Assembly: GCA_949296305.1 (NCBI GenBank)
Contig: CASFOT010000057.1
Span: forward strand, 1 to 50,507
Reading direction: 5' to 3'
Origin: an uncultured Erysipelotrichaceae bacterium
GTDB taxonomy: Bacteria > Bacillota_I > Bacilli_A > Erysipelotrichales > Erysipelotrichaceae
DNA length: 50,507 bases
In this document: in pieces, positions 26,591 to 46,392 of the stretch
How positions within the stretch are numbered: the stretch's first letter is position 1
Layout of the letters: every line of letters begins with the position of its first letter
Made by a program: the position numbers and the translations under genes
Notes under the pieces: generated by a model
The model's database searches: none
What the model saw: only the letters and a program-made list of their open reading frames with translations
What the model was told of the DNA's origin: nothing

Positions 26591-26667
26591 TTGCACGCGG
26601 AAGCTTTGTCGACGAGATTCAAAGAGTATGATATGATTAAAAGCGAATGCGGAAGGGAGGAATGGTC

Positions 26668-29268
26668 ATGGAGCATCAGAAAAACAAACAGATCGTGCTG
26701 GGTTTATTAGCACATGTTGATGCAGGGAAGACAACATTAAGTGAAGGGCTGCTTTATCTTAGCGGCAGTATACGTAAGCGCGGACGTGTCGATCACGGGA
26801 ATGCGACATTGGATTTTTATCAGCAGGAAATGCAACGTGGAATTACTATTTTTTCAAAACAGGCATATCTTCCTTATAACGGAAACGGATATACTTTACT
26901 AGATACGCCTGGGCATGTTGATTTCTCAGCTGAAATGGAACGGACGTTATCAGTGTTGGATTATGCGCTCGTCGTTGTCAGTGCACTGGATGGGGTACAA
27001 GCACATACACGTACGATCTGGCGTTTGTTGCAGCATTACGGTCTCCCTTGTTTTCTGTTCGTCAATAAGATGGATATTGCCCATGAGGGATCTTTGCAGA
27101 TCATGGAGAAACTGCAGAAAGAACTTGATGAACATTGCGTTTGTTTTGATGCCAGTGATCACTGGAAAGAAGAAGCCGCTTTGTGCAGCGAAGCTGCTTT
27201 GGAACAATATATGGCAACCGGGAATATTGAAGAAGAGATGATCGCTTCTTTGATCCAAGAAAGAAAACTATTTCCTGTCTTTTTCGGATCTGCCTTAAAG
27301 ATGCAAGGTGTTGAAGATCTCTTTGCTGCCATGGACCGTTATACACGAATGCGTGCTTATCCGAGTACATTTGGTGCACGTGTATTTAAAGTCAATGTGG
27401 ATGAACAGGGAAATCGTTTGACACATCTAAAGATCACTGGCGGCATGCTGCGGGTAAAAGAAAAACTTTATCAAGATGAAAAAGCTGATCAGCTGCGCCG
27501 CTATTGTGGGAAAAATTATGAGTTGCTGCAATCAGCAAGTGCAGGGATGATCTGTGCAGTTAAAGGGATCCGATCATTGTATCCAGGAGAGGGACTCGGA
27601 TTTGAAAAAGCGCAGATCGAAGCTTCGCTTACACCATATATGACGTATCAATTGCATCCGCTTGCCAATGGCGATCTGACTACGTTGTATATGGCTTGCA
27701 AACAGCTTGCTCAGGAAGATCCGCAGCTGCATGTTCATTTTGATGAAAACAGCCAGCAGCTGCATGTTCAGTTAATGGGGGAAATTCAATGTGAAGTACT
27801 TCAGCAGCAATTATCCGAGCGGTTTCATTTGAAAGTTGCTGTGGATGATGGAAGTGTGATCTATAAAGAAACGATCATGGAACCAGTAGAAGGGGTCGGT
27901 CATTTTGAACCGTTGCGTCATTATGCAGAAGTTCATCTGTTGCTGGAACCTCTGCCGCCGGGCAGCGGATTGCAGGTGGATAGTCGCTGTTCAGAAGAAG
28001 ATCTGGCACTTTCTTGGCAGCGCTTGATCCTGACACATGTATTAGAACAAGAACATCCCGGTGTATTAGGCGGTTTTCCGATCACAGATCTTCGTATCAC
28101 TCTGTTAAGCGGGAAAGCACATTTGAAACATACGGAAGGCGGAGATTTCCGTGAAGCGGTTTATCGTGCGATCCGCCATGGATTGCGCCGCGGCAAAAGC
28201 GTCCTATTGGAACCGTACTGCGATTTCCGCATGGAGGTGCCACAAGATGCCTTGGGACGTGCCATTTTTGAAATTGAACGAATCCAAGGCAGTTTTCAGC
28301 TGCAAGAAGCAAAAGAAGGGTTTGCTCGTTTATCTGGTTGTGCACCGCTTTCCGGCATGCAGCTAGTCGCAAAGGAACTCTCTTCTTATACGAAAGGGAG
28401 CGGACGGTTGTACTATACCTTTGCAGACTATCGGCCATGTCAACAGGCACAGAGCGTTTTAGAAAAAAGAGGATATGACTGCGACCATGATGTTGACCAC
28501 CCTTGTGGTTCGATCTTCTGTGCGCATGGAGCGGGATTCTATGTGCCATGGAATGAAGTTGAACAGCATATGCACCTGCCTTTCAGCTATCAGATCAAAA
28601 AGACGCCTTCGAACACACCGATCAAACGATCAAATACAAAAAAAGTCCAATCTTCCCTTCAAGAGGATGAAGAACTTCAAGCAATCTTTGATCAGACGTA
28701 CAAAGCGAAAAAACAGAAGGTCAATCATCGCGAAAGCTATGAACGGCATGAACAGCAACGCTTGAACAAAGAAGCAAATCTGCCAGAATGCTTGCTGGTA
28801 GATGGTTACAATATCATTCATGATTGGGAAGAATTATCTGAATTAGCAAAACAAGATCTGGATGCGGCACGGCATGCCTTGATACAGATCATGTGCAATT
28901 ATCAAGGATATCGCCAATGCACATTGATCCTTGTCTTTGATGCTTATAAAGTAAAAGAACAAGGCGGATCTATTCAAAAAGTCGATAATATTTATGTCGT
29001 CTATACGAAAAGTGCACAAACTGCAGATAGTTATATCGAACAAGCGACACATCAGCTAGCTAAAGCTTTTCGTGTATCTGTAGCAACCTCTGACGGTCTG
29101 GAACAACTGATTGCTATCGGCCAAGGGGCGATGCGCATTTCTGCCCGCGGATTTTATGAAGAAGTGATGCGCGAACATCAACAAGGCATGCGGCAAGCAA
29201 GCCGTTATTGTGAAAGTGGATTTTCGCAGCCATTAGCCGCATTGCGGCAATGGAAGGATAAAGAATAA
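26668..29268 (+). CDS. Tet(M)-like ribosomal GTPase fused to a YacP/Rae1-type NYN nuclease domain
   Basis: An 866-aa fusion. Residues ~1-640 are an EF-G/ribosomal-protection-type translational GTPase: AHVDAGKTTL (G1), RGITI (G2), DTPGHVDF (G3), NKMD (G4), domain IV/V with FRMEVPQDALG and the ELSSYTKGSGRLYYTF region. After a charged linker (~640-705), residues ~708-845 form an NYN domain very like Bacillus Rae1 (YacP): CLLVDGYNIIHDW, LVFDAYKVK, TADSYIE, VATSDGLEQ, GQGAMRISAR, with candidate metal Asps 712, 758, 787 and 809. Rae1 is a ribosome-dependent mRNA endonuclease. ATG 26668 is 7 nt after AGGGAGG. A tetracycline resistance role is unproven. Confidence 0.85.
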   Translation: MEHQKNKQIVLGLLAHVDAGKTTLSEGLLYLSGSIRKRGRVDHGNATLDFYQQEMQRGITIFSKQAYLPYNGNGYTLLDTPGHVDFSAEMERTLSVLDYALVVVSALDGVQAHTRTIWRLLQHYGLPCFLFVNKMDIAHEGSLQIMEKLQKELDEHCVCFDASDHWKEEAALCSEAALEQYMATGNIEEEMIASLIQERKLFPVFFGSALKMQGVEDLFAAMDRYTRMRAYPSTFGARVFKVNVDEQGNRLTHLKITGGMLRVKEKLYQDEKADQLRRYCGKNYELLQSASAGMICAVKGIRSLYPGEGLGFEKAQIEASLTPYMTYQLHPLANGDLTTLYMACKQLAQEDPQLHVHFDENSQQLHVQLMGEIQCEVLQQQLSERFHLKVAVDDGSVIYKETIMEPVEGVGHFEPLRHYAEVHLLLEPLPPGSGLQVDSRCSEEDLALSWQRLILTHVLEQEHPGVLGGFPITDLRITLLSGKAHLKHTEGGDFREAVYRAIRHGLRRGKSVLLEPYCDFRMEVPQDALGRAIFEIERIQGSFQLQEAKEGFARLSGCAPLSGMQLVAKELSSYTKGSGRLYYTFADYRPCQQAQSVLEKRGYDCDHDVDHPCGSIFCAHGAGFYVPWNEVEQHMHLPFSYQIKKTPSNTPIKRSNTKKVQSSLQEDEELQAIFDQTYKAKKQKVNHRESYERHEQQRLNKEANLPECLLVDGYNIIHDWEELSELAKQDLDAARHALIQIMCNYQGYRQCTLILVFDAYKVKEQGGSIQKVDNIYVVYTKSAQTADSYIEQATHQLAKAFRVSVATSDGLEQLIAIGQGAMRISARGFYEEVMREHQQGMRQASRYCESGFSQPLAALRQWKDKE

Positions 29269-29282
29269 AAACGCTGAACACA

Positions 29283-29309
29283 AACGCTGAACACAGCGTT
29301 TTTTTTTGT
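29283..29309 (+). terminator. terminator after the GTPase-nuclease gene
   Basis: AACGCTG-AACA-CAGCGTT followed by T10. AACGCTGAACAC is also repeated just upstream, a short duplication of the left arm. Confidence 0.85.
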
Positions 29310-29353
29310 TCAATTTTTTGATTTTGTGATACGCTATTCAGGAAGGATTGTGT

Positions 29354-29359
29354 TATAAT
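29354..29359 (+). promoter_or_regulatory. extended -10 promoter of the corA transcript
   Basis: TGT-TATAAT (-10 at 29354-29359) with TG extension and no clear -35. Expected start near 29366, giving a leader of ~125 nt. Confidence 0.6.
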
Positions 29360-29387
29360 AGCGAAAGAGTGAAAGAAGGTGTTGTAT

Positions 29388-29462
29388 ATGGCTCCTGAGC
29401 CCGAAGCGAATTATTATATGAATATTGAAAGCACAACAGACCAGGAGGCATGTACAGAATAG
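29388..29462 (+). CDS. 24-codon leader peptide ORF upstream of corA
   Basis: The ORF begins MAPEPEANYY and ends ...QEACTE at TAG 29460-29462. It has a fair ribosome site (AAGGTG, 6 nt upstream) and a promoter at the right distance. Net charge is strongly acidic and the start alternates proline with glutamate. It ends 28 nt before the corA start, inside the region that controls the corA ribosome site. The acid/proline start resembles MgtL, the leader of Mg2+ transporter mgtA in enterobacteria, whose translation aborts when Mg2+ is low. Function here is inferred. Confidence 0.6.
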   Translation: MAPEPEANYYMNIESTTDQEACTE

Positions 29463-29484
29463 TCCTCCTGCAGAAAAGGAGGAT
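29442..29484 (+). promoter_or_regulatory. two-state Shine-Dalgarno switch of corA
   Basis: CCTCCTG (29464-29470) can pair with upstream CAGGAGG (29442-29448, 7 bp, 15-nt loop) or, as GTCCTCCT (29462-29469), with AGGAGGAT (29477-29484, 8 bp with one G-U, 7-nt loop), which contains the corA ribosome site. The pairings exclude each other. CAGGAGG lies inside the leader ORF, so ribosome progress there would decide which forms. Confidence 0.6.
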
Positions 29485-29490
29485 ATGAAT

Positions 29491-30441
29491 ATGCTTGAAT
29501 TTTACAAGTCTTTTGATAATGTGACAAAACGAATCGAACAGCCAGAACCAGGCTGCTGGATCAATGCGGTCACTCCTACAGATGAAGAAGTTGATTTTCT
29601 CGTACATAAGATCGGTGTTCTGCCGGAATTTGTAAAATCATCTTTAGATGAGGAAGAAAATGCGCATATTGACTATGATGATGACGAAAACCAGACGTTG
29701 ATCATTGTCGATTATCCAAGTTCCGAGGAAAGAGAAGATCATTATGACGAAAACACATTGCAATATACGACTTTGCCATTAGGCGTCGTCATCATGAAAG
29801 GTTATGTCATTACCATTAGTTTGCATGAAAATCTCAACATAGAGGATATGGCGAACGGAATCGTGCGCGGTGTGCGCACAGACATGAAGACGAGATTCTT
29901 ATTATTGCTGCTGTTGCGAATTTCACAGCGCTATTTGATTTATCTGCGTCAGATCGATCGTTTGTCTTCCCGTACAGAACAGAAATTGCATCAATCCATG
30001 AAAAATGAAGAGCTGATCCAGATGCTAGGGCTGGAAAAATCATTGGTTTATTTTTCCACGTCATTGAAAAGTGATGAGATCGTCATCAACAAGATCATGC
30101 GCGGCAAATTTATCAAGCTTTATGAAGAAGATCAAGATCTGCTGGATGATGTGCTGATCGAGATCCATCAGGCAATCGAGATGTGTAATATTTATTCCAA
30201 CATCTTGTCAGGTACGATGGATGCTTTTGCTTCTGTCATTTCGAATAACTTGAATATAGTCATGAAAGTATTGACAGTCATTACGATCGTCATGGCCATT
30301 CCAAATATCATCTTTGGTTTTTATGGCATGAACGTAGGCGGTTTGCCAGCAGCACAAACATGGCTGATGCCAATGATCTTGGCATTGATTGCCATGGGGA
30401 TCGCTACTTGGATCTTCATCAAAAAAGACATGTTTCATTAG
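29491..30441 (+). CDS. corA: CorA-family divalent cation (Mg2+) transporter
   Basis: A 316-aa CorA-type channel. The long cytoplasmic N domain (about 1-250) is rich in acidic residues; two C-terminal membrane helices follow, the first ending in the selectivity motif YGMNVGG, the second near residues 290-310. ATG 29491 is 8 nt after AAGGAGG; ATG 29485 is only 2 nt from it. It is preceded by a leader ORF and alternative hairpins that can hide this ribosome site, so translation is probably regulated. Transport of Mg2+ is the family norm; some members carry Co2+, Ni2+ or Zn2+. Confidence 0.93.
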   Translation: MLEFYKSFDNVTKRIEQPEPGCWINAVTPTDEEVDFLVHKIGVLPEFVKSSLDEEENAHIDYDDDENQTLIIVDYPSSEEREDHYDENTLQYTTLPLGVVIMKGYVITISLHENLNIEDMANGIVRGVRTDMKTRFLLLLLLRISQRYLIYLRQIDRLSSRTEQKLHQSMKNEELIQMLGLEKSLVYFSTSLKSDEIVINKIMRGKFIKLYEEDQDLLDDVLIEIHQAIEMCNIYSNILSGTMDAFASVISNNLNIVMKVLTVITIVMAIPNIIFGFYGMNVGGLPAAQTWLMPMILALIAMGIATWIFIKKDMFH

Positions 30442-30465
30442 TGAACGCATTTGTTCACTTTTTTT
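30441..30465 (+). terminator. corA terminator
   Basis: GTGAAC-GCATTT-GTTCAC followed by T7, starting at the last base of the stop codon. Confidence 0.8.
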
Positions 30466-30530
30466 ATAAAAAAGATGTAACGGTAATGTATTTTGAACAT
30501 ACACTCAAATCGTTACATCTTTTTATTTTT
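30466..30530. terminator. bidirectional terminator between corA and trkH
   Basis: GATGTAACG (30474-30482) pairs with CGTTACATC (30511-30519) around a 28-nt loop. T runs flank it on both strands, so it ends trkH on the minus strand and backs up the corA terminator. Confidence 0.75.
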
Positions 30531-32022
30531 ATTTGTTGTAATGTTTATGTGAATCGCGATGCAGAAAAGCTGCAACAAAGATCAAAATTGGATAAATTTC
30601 CAAACGGCCGATCAACATGGCAAATGATAATGTGATCTTTGAAAGATCAGAGAACATAGAGAAATTGCCTAATGGTCCGGCAACGCCCAAACCTGGTCCT
30701 ACATTTCCAAGACAAGCAAAGCATGCACCTACGGTAGATTGCAGATCAAAGTTATCCAAAGAAACGATAAACAGGATGATAACTAAAATCAACATGAAAC
30801 AGAAGAAATAACTACAAATTTGATGGACGACCGTTTTATCGACTTTTTTTCCATCCATGGTGATCACGTCTACTTTTTGTGGGTGAACCAAGCGCTGTAA
30901 ATCTAATTTCGTCTGTTTCAGCAAGATCAGCAAACGGCTGATCTTCAAACCGCCTGCTGTTGAACCAGCACATGCACCGATCAGCATCAAAATCAATAGA
31001 AGCATTTTAGAGAACATTGGCCAGCAATTGAAATCAGCAGTTGAAAAACCGGTCGTTGACATCACAGAAGCTACTTGGAATATCGAATAACGGAACGCTT
31101 GTAATAAAGAACCATCTACCGTTGAAGAAATATTGATAGCTATTGCGACGACACTGAATAAAACGATCATCAGATACATGCGCACTTCTTCATTGCGGAA
31201 AACGGAACGTACGTTTTTGATCAAAATGAAATAAAATAAGTTAAAATTGATACCAAATATCAGCATGAAGCAAGATATGACCATTTCCAGATAAACACTG
31301 TCAAAATAAGCAATACTATTGTTTTTGGTTGAAAAACCGCCTGTTCCTGCTGTGCCAAAGGCAGTGCAGAGAGAATCAAACAATGGCATGCCGCCGATGA
31401 GCAGGAAGATGACCATAATGATCGTCAGGACAAAATAGATCTTATAGAGGATCGCAGCACTTTCCCTTAAACGTGGAACAAGCTTGCCGATGATCGGACC
31501 GGGTGCTTCAGCACGCATGATGTGCATCATCCGGTCATTTGACCTTGGGACGAGTGCAAGGAGGAAAACGAGAATTCCCATACCGCCGATCCAATGAGTG
31601 AAACTGCGCCAAAATAGGGAAGCATGCGACAACACTTCTACGTTGGTGAGTATGCTTGAACCTGTTGTGGTAAAACCAGATACGGTTTCAAAAAAGCAAT
31701 CGACGAAAGAGGGGATCTCTTTGGTGAAAAAGAATGGAAGACCGCCAAATATGGATACGACGAGCCAGGTCAATCCAACAGCAATCAAACCATCTTTTGC
31801 AAAGTAGGAATGATCGGATTTTAAGGTTGATAGCAGCGCACCGCATAAAATACAGGTGATGATGGTGAGCAGATAAGCATGAGCAACATGTTCACCATAA
31901 ATCAAGTCAACGATCAGGGGAAGAAAGAGCAGACAGCCTTCAATGATCAATGCATAGCCGACAATGTAGCCGATGACTCTCCAGTTCAGCTTATGTAAAC
32001 GACGATTAAGCGAGAACATCAT
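30529..32022 (-). CDS. trkH: Trk/Ktr-type potassium uptake protein, membrane subunit
   Basis: A 497-aa K+ channel-like transporter built of four M1-P-M2 repeats. The selectivity glycines are visible in FTTTGSS, FGTAGTGGFST, MSTTGFSTAD and CLGNVGPGLG. It forms a K+ uptake system with the regulatory subunit encoded just upstream; the genes overlap by 17 nt. No other K+ system is in the window. Confidence 0.95.
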   Translation of the reverse strand: MMFSLNRRLHKLNWRVIGYIVGYALIIEGCLLFLPLIVDLIYGEHVAHAYLLTIITCILCGALLSTLKSDHSYFAKDGLIAVGLTWLVVSIFGGLPFFFTKEIPSFVDCFFETVSGFTTTGSSILTNVEVLSHASLFWRSFTHWIGGMGILVFLLALVPRSNDRMMHIMRAEAPGPIIGKLVPRLRESAAILYKIYFVLTIIMVIFLLIGGMPLFDSLCTAFGTAGTGGFSTKNNSIAYFDSVYLEMVISCFMLIFGINFNLFYFILIKNVRSVFRNEEVRMYLMIVLFSVVAIAINISSTVDGSLLQAFRYSIFQVASVMSTTGFSTADFNCWPMFSKMLLLILMLIGACAGSTAGGLKISRLLILLKQTKLDLQRLVHPQKVDVITMDGKKVDKTVVHQICSYFFCFMLILVIILFIVSLDNFDLQSTVGACFACLGNVGPGLGVAGPLGNFSMFSDLSKITLSFAMLIGRLEIYPILIFVAAFLHRDSHKHYNK

Positions 32023-33364
32023 TGATCTCCCTTAAACCGTGCAGCTGGCTGATGATGATCACGGTGTCTCCTAATGAAACGGTAGAGTTGCCGCTGGCAA
32101 TCGTTGCTTTTCCTTTCCGCAGGATATTGCTGAGCAGGATTCCTTTTTTGAATTTGATCTCTTTTAAAGGCTGATTGATAAACCGGCAATTTTCACGAAC
32201 GCGGAACTCTAGAACTTCTACTTGATCATCGACAATCTTGGTAAGCGACTCGACGCTGCTTCCCAATGTGTTCTGCATGGCACGTACATATTGTACGATC
32301 TGATTGGCTGTTAAATTTTTAGGTGTGATCGTATTCTCCAATCCTAATTTCTCTAATAAGAAGCCGAGTGCGATTCGATTGACTTTTGGCAATACGCGCG
32401 GTACGCCGTGGCTGGAAGCATACATGGAAGTAATGACGTTTTCTTCATCATTATCTGTTAATGCAATGAATGCATCCATCTCTTCTAAATTTTCAGATAG
32501 GAGAAGTTCATGATCAGTACCGTCTCCGTGGATCACGGTCAATAATGGGAAACGTTCGACTAATTCTTCACAGCGATCCCGTTTGATTTCAATGACTTTA
32601 ACAGCAATTCCCATTTCCATCAGCATCGGAGCTAGATAGAATGTGATCTTTCCACCGCCGATGATCATGAGCTCGTGAATGGCACGATGTTCAATGATGC
32701 CGGTTTCACATAAAAATTTTTCTAATTGTTTCGCTGTGGCAGTCAGGGTCACCTTGTCATTTTCCTGTAACAGGGTCATGCCATCCGGGATGATTGCTTG
32801 GCCGTCACGTTGAATTGCGACAAACTGCACTTGCGACTTTAAGGCACTGTCAATCTGATAAATGGTTTGATCACATAGCGGGTTTCCTTCTTTGATCTTG
32901 ATTTCTGCTAATTCCATCCGTCCTTTTGCGAACGAACTGACCTTAATGCTGTTGGCAAAGCTCAATGAGCGGACGATCTCTCTGGCTGCTGTTTGTTCTG
33001 GATTGATCTGCATGCTGAGTCCAAGATCTTCTTTTAACATTCGTAATCCGCGTACATATTCTGGATTTCGAATACGGGCAATCGTATGATCTGCACCCAT
33101 CTTTTTTGCTAGAAGACAGCTGATGATATTGACTTCATCGCTGGAAGTAGCAGCGATCACAAGATCGGCTTGTTCGACATTCGCTTCCTTGAGCACATCA
33201 TAATTACAGCCATTACCATAAACACCGACGACATCCAGTACATTCATTGTTAGATTAAGTACCTGTGGTTTGTTTTCAACTATGGTGATCTCATATCCTT
33301 CGTGACTTAACTGTTTAGCAATTGCAAAACCAACTTTGCCATTTCCTATGATGATGATCTTCAT
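32006..33364 (-). CDS. trkA: Trk potassium uptake regulatory subunit (two RCK domains)
   Basis: A 452-aa cytoplasmic regulator with two RCK_N/RCK_C repeats. The first nucleotide-binding fold begins MKIIIIGNGKVGFAIA, the second MIIGGGKITFYLAPML at about residue 230; RCK_C regions end each half. It binds NAD(H)/ATP and gates TrkH. The start MKIIIIG at 33364 is preferred over upstream in-frame ATGs because the fold begins there and GGGGGA lies upstream. A TAGACA-16-TAAAAT promoter lies at 33438-33411. Confidence 0.95.
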   Translation of the reverse strand: MKIIIIGNGKVGFAIAKQLSHEGYEITIVENKPQVLNLTMNVLDVVGVYGNGCNYDVLKEANVEQADLVIAATSSDEVNIISCLLAKKMGADHTIARIRNPEYVRGLRMLKEDLGLSMQINPEQTAAREIVRSLSFANSIKVSSFAKGRMELAEIKIKEGNPLCDQTIYQIDSALKSQVQFVAIQRDGQAIIPDGMTLLQENDKVTLTATAKQLEKFLCETGIIEHRAIHELMIIGGGKITFYLAPMLMEMGIAVKVIEIKRDRCEELVERFPLLTVIHGDGTDHELLLSENLEEMDAFIALTDNDEENVITSMYASSHGVPRVLPKVNRIALGFLLEKLGLENTITPKNLTANQIVQYVRAMQNTLGSSVESLTKIVDDQVEVLEFRVRENCRFINQPLKEIKFKKGILLSNILRKGKATIASGNSTVSLGDTVIIISQLHGLREINDVLA

Positions 33365-33410
33365 GTTTTCCCCCATCCTTTTCATGAAAGTTGAATCCAT
33401 TTGTTCTTAC

Positions 33411-46204: not shown

Positions 46205-46392
46205 CATACAAATGAGAGTTTAGAGGCAGCAATGCATCAGAGTACAGCTGGGAGCCGGCAGGTGATGAACAGTTGGAAAGGTAATCATTGCCGAAGGAGA
46301 AATGTTGGTAGACATGATCCTGGGGGTGCAAGAAATACTTGCATCACTCCTTCATAAGATTTTATGAAGAGGCGCTATTAGAGGACCTGAGA
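46205..46392 (+). promoter_or_regulatory. lysine riboswitch (L box)
   Basis: Conserved L-box segments occur in order: TAGAGGCAGCAA...CAGAGTA, then GGAAAGG...ATTGCCGAAGGA, then CTGGGGGTGCAAG...CTTGCATC, and a final hairpin TTCATAAGATTTTATGAA before GAGG. The closing 3' strand GCTATTAG (46374-46381) is complementary to CTAATAGC (46406-46413) inside the terminator, giving the antiterminator. Lysine binding would favour termination. Confidence 0.85.

Follow-up and report, generated by a model that had tools for sequence, protein, structure and literature searches.

A candidate translational attenuator with an acidic/proline leader peptide upstream of corA in Erysipelotrichales

The corA locus and its transcription unit

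The window, that is, the whole stretch of 50,507 nucleotides analyzed here, lies in contig C57 of an Erysipelotrichales genome that is 86% complete, and contains a corA gene at positions 29491-30441 (+ strand). The gene product (316 aa) belongs to the Mg2+ transporter family PF01544 and carries the YGMN motif; it resembled solved Mg2+ transporters in a comparison with structures, and Mg2+ transport is its predicted function. The nearest corA matches were Merdibacter records with 91-93% identity, from genomes that the kinship table assigns to the same genus. Neither a second CorA nor MgtE was found in the assembly (at 86% completeness), and MgtE above the family cut-off was absent from 22 of the 31 genomes bearing the leader described below, suggesting that this corA may be a main Mg2+ importer.

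The upstream EF-G/YacP-like gene is ended by an intrinsic terminator at 29282-29301 (+ strand): an 8-bp stem, AAACGCTG..CAGCGTTT, followed by T6. An extended -10 promoter element, TGTTATAAT, was read at 29351-29359 (+ strand), and the terminator scan located another terminator 3' of corA at 30440-30459 (+ strand). Based on these three elements, corA appears to form its own (monocistronic) transcription unit. The position of the promoter element is kept in relatives, with TGnTATAAT at the equivalent place in nearly all of their corA upstream regions; no -35 element was recognizable, and a consensus scan flagged no sigma-70 pair at the 29351-29359 promoter. The adjoining upstream gene, closed by its own terminator, encodes an 873-aa protein (26647-29268) in which a TetM/EF-G-like translational GTPase is followed by an NYN_YacP (PIN-like RNase) domain at the C-terminus. 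Downstream, two genes on the minus strand (30529-33400), convergent with corA, read as TrkH-/TrkA-like potassium uptake, and a lysine riboswitch (RF00168; 69.8 bits) is found at 46213-46385.

The leader peptide and the four pairing arms

Between the promoter and corA lies a leader peptide ORF of 24 codons at 29388-29462 (+ strand; ATG at 29388 and TAG at 29460-29462), which encodes MAPEPEANYYMNIESTTDQEACTE, starts MAPEPEANYY, and ends 28 nt before the corA ATG at 29491. Its Shine-Dalgarno (SD) sequence, GAAGG (29375-29379, + strand; inside GAAAGAAGGTG), is located 8 nt upstream of the ATG and is near-invariant in the leader alignment. A preliminary description of this DNA had reported the 24-codon MAPEPE frame with a promoter and ribosome site, 28 nt before corA; this reading was confirmed (the promoter being the extended -10 element above, with no recognizable -35), and its coordinates all proved correct.

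For comparison, corA upstream regions were collected from contigs and from a 295-genome sample of Erysipelotrichales, and 43 leaders were recognized, across which a translatable ORF (predicted from its own SD and ATG) was conserved. Conservation was concentrated at the N-terminus of the peptide: codon 2 was Ser, Ala, or Thr in 41/43 leaders, codon 3 was Pro in 37/43, codon 4 was Asp or Glu in 39/43, codon 5 was Pro in 41/43, and codon 6 was Asp or Glu in 28/43, with just one acidic residue within codons 4-6 in about 15/43; conservation was absent from codon 7 onward. Since CCT, CCA, CCG, and CCC are used alike at Pro positions 3 and 5 (synonymous codons being free to vary) and nothing is kept after codon 6, selection appears to act on the residues encoded by codons 3-6. 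Pro3-Glu4-Pro5-Glu6 of the window (29394-29405, + strand) was therefore regarded, on the basis of conservation in the 43 leaders, as a putative ribosome-destabilizing/stalling motif. In the MSLDADG and MSLDSDG leaders, both prolines are gone and the alternating Asp residues are retained, which favors acidic ribosome destabilization over the sensing of proline codons or proline starvation. The length of the ORF (12-31 codons) and the position of its stop (-6 to +36 relative to arm 2; see below) varied among the relatives.

Four RNA arms were assigned on the + strand, and together with the -10 element and the leader ORF they are all contained in 29351-29490, ending at the corA SD. Arm 1 (29383-29397), supported by both folding and covariation, is the start region of the leader, UGUAUAUG-G-CUCCUG, and pairs with arm 2 (29442-29456), CAGGAG-G-CAUGUACA; in this helix (1:2), CTCCTG/TGTATATG (29383-29390 and 29392-29397) is matched with CAGGAG/CATGTACA (29442-29447 and 29449-29456). 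Arm 2 may instead pair, via CAGGAGG (29442-29448), with arm 3 (29462-29470; GUCCUCCUG, including CCTCCTG at 29464-29470). Arm 4 (29476-29484), likewise supported by folding and covariation, holds the corA SD, AAGGAGG (29476-29482), which is hidden when 29462-29469 pairs with 29477-29484 (helix 3:4). Thus, 1:2 + 3:4 (corA site hidden; OFF) and 2:3 (corA site free; ON) are mutually exclusive structures. The minimum free energy (MFE) fold of the window leader was 1:2 + 3:4, at -41.3 kcal/mol (z -4.2; none of 200 shuffles equally low). Conserved codons 5 and 6 both lie outside arm 1, and pairing cannot account for them.

The preliminary description had proposed a three-segment switch, in which CCTCCTG pairs with either CAGGAGG or the corA site. 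This exclusive pairing was borne out, helices 2:3 and 3:4 both covarying in 40 leaders, and arms 2, 3, and 4 are real; the scheme was incomplete in that arm 1 had been overlooked. With codons 1-6 occupied by a ribosome, arm 1 is covered and arm 2 becomes available to arm 3, and the switch is consequently stronger than originally proposed. Comparison of the PEPE start and the pairing arms with those of relatives had been suggested; a Pro-acid-Pro-acid start prevails among the 43 leaders at the frequencies given above, and all helices covary in the 40 aligned leaders.

For the scoring of pairing and covariation, 40 leaders were aligned without gaps, with the arms as anchors. Standard pairs occupied 78.4% of the cells in 1:2 + 3:4 (42-50% with slid partners) and 79.3% in 2:3 (42-48%), raw percentages that are inflated because the arm registers were picked to maximize pairing, and that the slide and swap controls offset in part. 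None of 500 shuffles reached the observed covariation score, either for 1:2 + 3:4 or for 2:3, and whole-arm swaps between species reached the observed pairing in 0/2000 trials for each helix. On the CorA protein tree, helix 1:2 showed 21 independent double compensations (3-8 with slid partners), 19 of which fall within the six bases immediately 5' of the leader AUG, a non-coding stretch; helix 2:3 showed 15 (0-4), and helix 3:4 showed 13 (2-10), the weakest tree-based margin of the three. Given these controls and the large margins of 1:2 and 2:3, it is unlikely that the choice of register fully explains the pairing signal. RNAalifold on a plain alignment recovered helix 2:3 alone, and the arm-anchored alignment was used for the other two helices.

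In the 295-genome order sample, the leader was present in all 41 genomes carrying this corA clade (>=67% identity), and a covariance model gave 41 strong hits (E below 1e-9), each directly before corA; the search of this sample found no leader before any other gene. The seven best weaker hits, read individually, were unrelated or false, and when 395 genomes of the class were searched with a DNA pattern, the four hits inspected outside the known corA leaders, among further one-mismatch hits, looked like in-frame coding stretches or unrelated sequence. No leader could be recognized upstream of CorA paralogues with less than about 55% identity, nor upstream of the Acholeplasmatales-like and Collinsella/Enorma corA copies.

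Computed effect of ribosome position on access to the corA site

The ribosome was modeled as a 31-nt footprint at each codon of the 43 leaders, and the remaining RNA was folded. On average, the corA SD was unpaired with a probability of 0.14 in ribosome-free RNA; a P site on codons 1-6 raised this value to 0.37-0.39, and it then fell to 0.32 (codon 7), 0.17 (codon 8), and 0.09-0.14 (codons 9-16). The codons whose occupancy opens the corA site therefore coincide with the conserved codons, and the folding analysis proposed in the preliminary description gave a corresponding picture, a ribosome on codons 1-6, and not later, freeing the site. Access climbed again at late leader codons, and in several relatives it barely changed in the scan.

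Freeing the SD had a median cost of 7.4 kcal/mol with no ribosome, which dropped to 2.5 kcal/mol when Pro3 occupied the P site and was 5.9 kcal/mol when the ribosome sat on arm 2; the cost with Pro3 in the P site was lower than that without a ribosome in 39/41 leaders. The corresponding values for the RNA of the window itself were 14.1, 6.4, and 13.7 kcal/mol, respectively. Since 3:4 is still favored at equilibrium in this RNA with the ribosome on codon 3, a kinetic step or competition by the 30S subunit must be assumed. When arm 1 was scrambled in silico, the cost was about 2.8 kcal/mol without and 2.4 kcal/mol with a ribosome (constitutively easier; ON); scrambled arm 2 gave about 8.1 kcal/mol with or without a ribosome (locked OFF), and scrambled arm 3 about 3.1 kcal/mol (ON). 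This is the pattern measured for arm mutants of Salmonella mgtQ (PMC8092293).

Proposed mechanism and comparison with known systems

The four-arm architecture, with its acidic/Pro leader and mutually exclusive helices that hide or expose the ribosome site of corA, and control at the level of translation are strongly supported by these results. We propose, with a probability of roughly 0.7, that the element is a translational attenuator of corA induced at low Mg2+ by faltering at leader codons 3-6. Without a ribosome on the leader, 1:2 would form and arm 3 would hold the corA ribosome site in arm 4 (OFF). A ribosome faltering on Met-Ala/Ser-Pro-Glu-Pro-Glu would cover arm 1 and leave arm 2 to form 2:3, by which the corA site would be released (ON), and smooth read-through would open arm 2 as well, returning arm 3 to arm 4 (OFF). 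When Mg2+ is low, translation would repeatedly falter or abort at codons 3-6, leading to the production of CorA. The faltering at the motif in this host, Mg2+ as what is sensed, and the direction of the response are what we infer from known leaders: in MgtL (EPDP), which depends on Glu2 and Asp4, a pause with Pro3 in the P site precedes drop-off of the ribosome (PMC11282234), and high Mg2+ suppresses ribosome destabilization (PMC9718836). Mg2+ would be the most economical signal, since a motif of the MgtL kind is located at nearly the same position and CorA lies downstream.

The same attenuator may respond to another signal, namely, a general failure of acid-Pro or Pro translation (shortage of EF-P or a YfmR-type ABC-F protein, charged tRNA-Pro, or osmotic/proline status). 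In B. subtilis, limitation of EF-P and YfmR causes ribosomes to stall at Asp-Pro motifs (PMC11381351), and stalling of this kind is the main rival to Mg2+ as the signal; furthermore, the leader residues conserved most strongly after Met are Pro3 and Pro5, and charged tRNA-Pro is reportedly sensed by Salmonella mgtP. On the other hand, the gene under the leader is always that of a CorA Mg2+ transporter, the two leaders without either proline retain Asp-x-Asp, and codons 3-6 contain no Pro-Pro motif, and we regard a signal other than Mg2+ as unlikely, although worth serious consideration. A more doubtful alternative is translational coupling, in which ribosomes that complete the leader, whose stop is near arm 3, would open 3:4 and give other ribosomes access to corA, expression of which would rise with efficient leader translation. 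The late increase in SD access fits this scheme, as does the finding that a terminating ribosome would overlie all or half of arm 3 in 38/41 leaders; in many relatives, it would overlie both arm 3 and the corA SD, an effect outside the simple model. However, where the stop is nearest corA, such a ribosome would mask the corA SD itself, and the variable position of the stop also argues against coupling. Moreover, among leaders with determined registers, three ORFs (L017, L051, and L085) terminate at or upstream of arm 2 without extending to arm 3, the remainder running past arm 2, and coupling leaves the conserved 1:2 pairing and the acid/Pro start unexplained.

Control at the level of transcription, by attenuation or by Rho-dependent termination as in corL and mgtL of E. 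coli/Salmonella, is very improbable. Enterobacterial corL-corA does employ Rho (PMC11552253), but the present leader has, on the + strand, no helix with a T-run after it, the corA SD itself sits in helix 3:4, and the terminator scan found no terminator in the leader, for which reason transcription attenuation was rejected. Short ORFs are common, and the frame might resemble a leader by chance, or its product might be a small functional protein without a regulatory role; we attach almost no weight to this explanation, because conservation is limited to codons 1-6 with the remaining peptide varying freely, and because the arms covary outside the coding part.

The proposed attenuator is closest in logic to Salmonella mgtQ-mgtB, in which a uORF with ribosome-destabilizing Asp2/Glu5 codons and the alternatives 1:2/3:4 and 2:3 control translation only, 3:4 hiding the mgtB site (PMC8092293). 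A short ORF, acidic codons near the start, four arms, and a hidden ribosome site of a Mg2+ importer are common to both. However, mgtQ has 8 codons, lies within an operon behind a PhoP-driven promoter, serves a P-type ATPase, is found in Enterobacterales, and does not require its Pro codon (PMC8092293), whereas the corA leader is the 5' leader of a monocistronic gene in Bacillota, with 12-31 codons, a Pro-acid-Pro-acid start, and unrelated sequences. The likeness to MgtL noted in the preliminary description is justified as far as the motif (Pro-acid-Pro-acid, codons 3-6) is concerned: mgtL has an alternating acidic/Pro start (EPDP after Met) and a Mg2+ importer downstream, and abortion at low Mg2+ turns on mgtA (PMC11282234, PMC11552253). 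The two systems differ in the regulated gene and in the switched element, which is Rho-dependent transcription termination in mgtL and the corA ribosome site here, the terminator scan of the corA leader being negative. The corL uORF of E. coli/Salmonella also lies upstream of corA, with alternative RNA folds, and is Mg2+-dependent (PMC11552253); it differs in Rho dependence, a UUG start, fewer acid/Pro residues, and the lack of a four-arm switch sequestering the SD, and is not evidently related. That a translational version would be new, as had been supposed, does not hold for bacteria in general, in view of mgtQ-mgtB (PMC8092293), and stands for a Gram-positive corA: no description of such an attenuator was found in Rfam or in the literature searched, a search mostly outside subscription journals.

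Four-arm logic is also shared with the erm attenuators, such as macrolide-inducible ermC, where a ribosome stalled on arm 1 allows 2:3 to form and the SD in arm 4 to be released; the gene and the motif differ, the erm leaders being antibiotic-sensing with a drug-dependent stall later in the leader. To our knowledge, none of mgtQ, mgtL, corL, and erm shares phylum and sequence with the corA leader. Classification of the element as a translational attenuator of the mgtQ/erm type with an MgtL-like stall motif is well supported, and the resemblance is probably convergent. The M-box (RF00380) provides Mg2+ control of Mg2+ importers in Bacillota; the corA leader showed no match to its covariance model, an Rfam search of the window and the leaders left the leader unmatched, and no M-box was found in the same genus. 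Although the leader was absent from 27/31 M-box genomes in the order sample, mutual exclusion of leader and M-box was rejected, because an M-box occurs in 4/41 leader genomes, about the chance level.

On balance, and with some reserve, we favor the broader view that Bacillota (Erysipelotrichales) independently evolved a Mg2+ sensor based on ribosome destabilization, which drives corA by a four-arm translational attenuator; the ribosome as sensor would then be recurrent rather than an enterobacterial specialty, and no other type of Mg2+-responsive RNA control would be known from most of these genomes. Mg2+ sensing by early abortion of translation outside enterobacteria was not found in the literature searched. 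If the view is correct, the Mg2+ dependence of the ribosome itself is a general regulatory input, operating in a distant phylum and on another transporter family, and regulation would be assigned to the corA of gut bacteria, in most of whose genomes no M-box or MgtE was detected. The natural variants MSPEPE, MSPDPS, MSSDPL, MSLDADG, MSPVPE, and MKEDPY may also reveal the sequence rules of destabilization in Gram-positive ribosomes.

Two diverged leaders, L088 (MKEDPYSHD...) and L089 (MFPDPEY...), retained the architecture with a different sequence. The former (MKEDPYSHDFF...) has the four-arm layout, GATGATCG:CGATCATC and TTTCCTT:AAGGAGGAAA, in unrelated sequence; since the covariance model misses it, the leader family appears to be wider than counted. 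Upstream of corA in L032 and L176, an 11-bp helix, GTGGTGCATTT:AAATGTGCCAC, and a TGGCAC hairpin accompany a possible TTG-start ORF, MDTYICNKNN; this layout resembles arms 1:2 and 2:3, with 3:4 not obvious. L179 and L181 contain short ORFs (MPEDICRYYNK... and MSSDINRSTLKQ..., respectively) about 100-150 nt before corA, each then followed by a T-rich run, which may be transcription-attenuation relatives. Upstream of corA in Anoxybacillus voinovskiensis (L040:1835-2010), a frame MSSRSSNEPEPEYSGEALLFSF... contains an EPEPE run, the leader fold being very stable (z -4.5), and is possibly an independent acidic/Pro leader in Bacillaceae.
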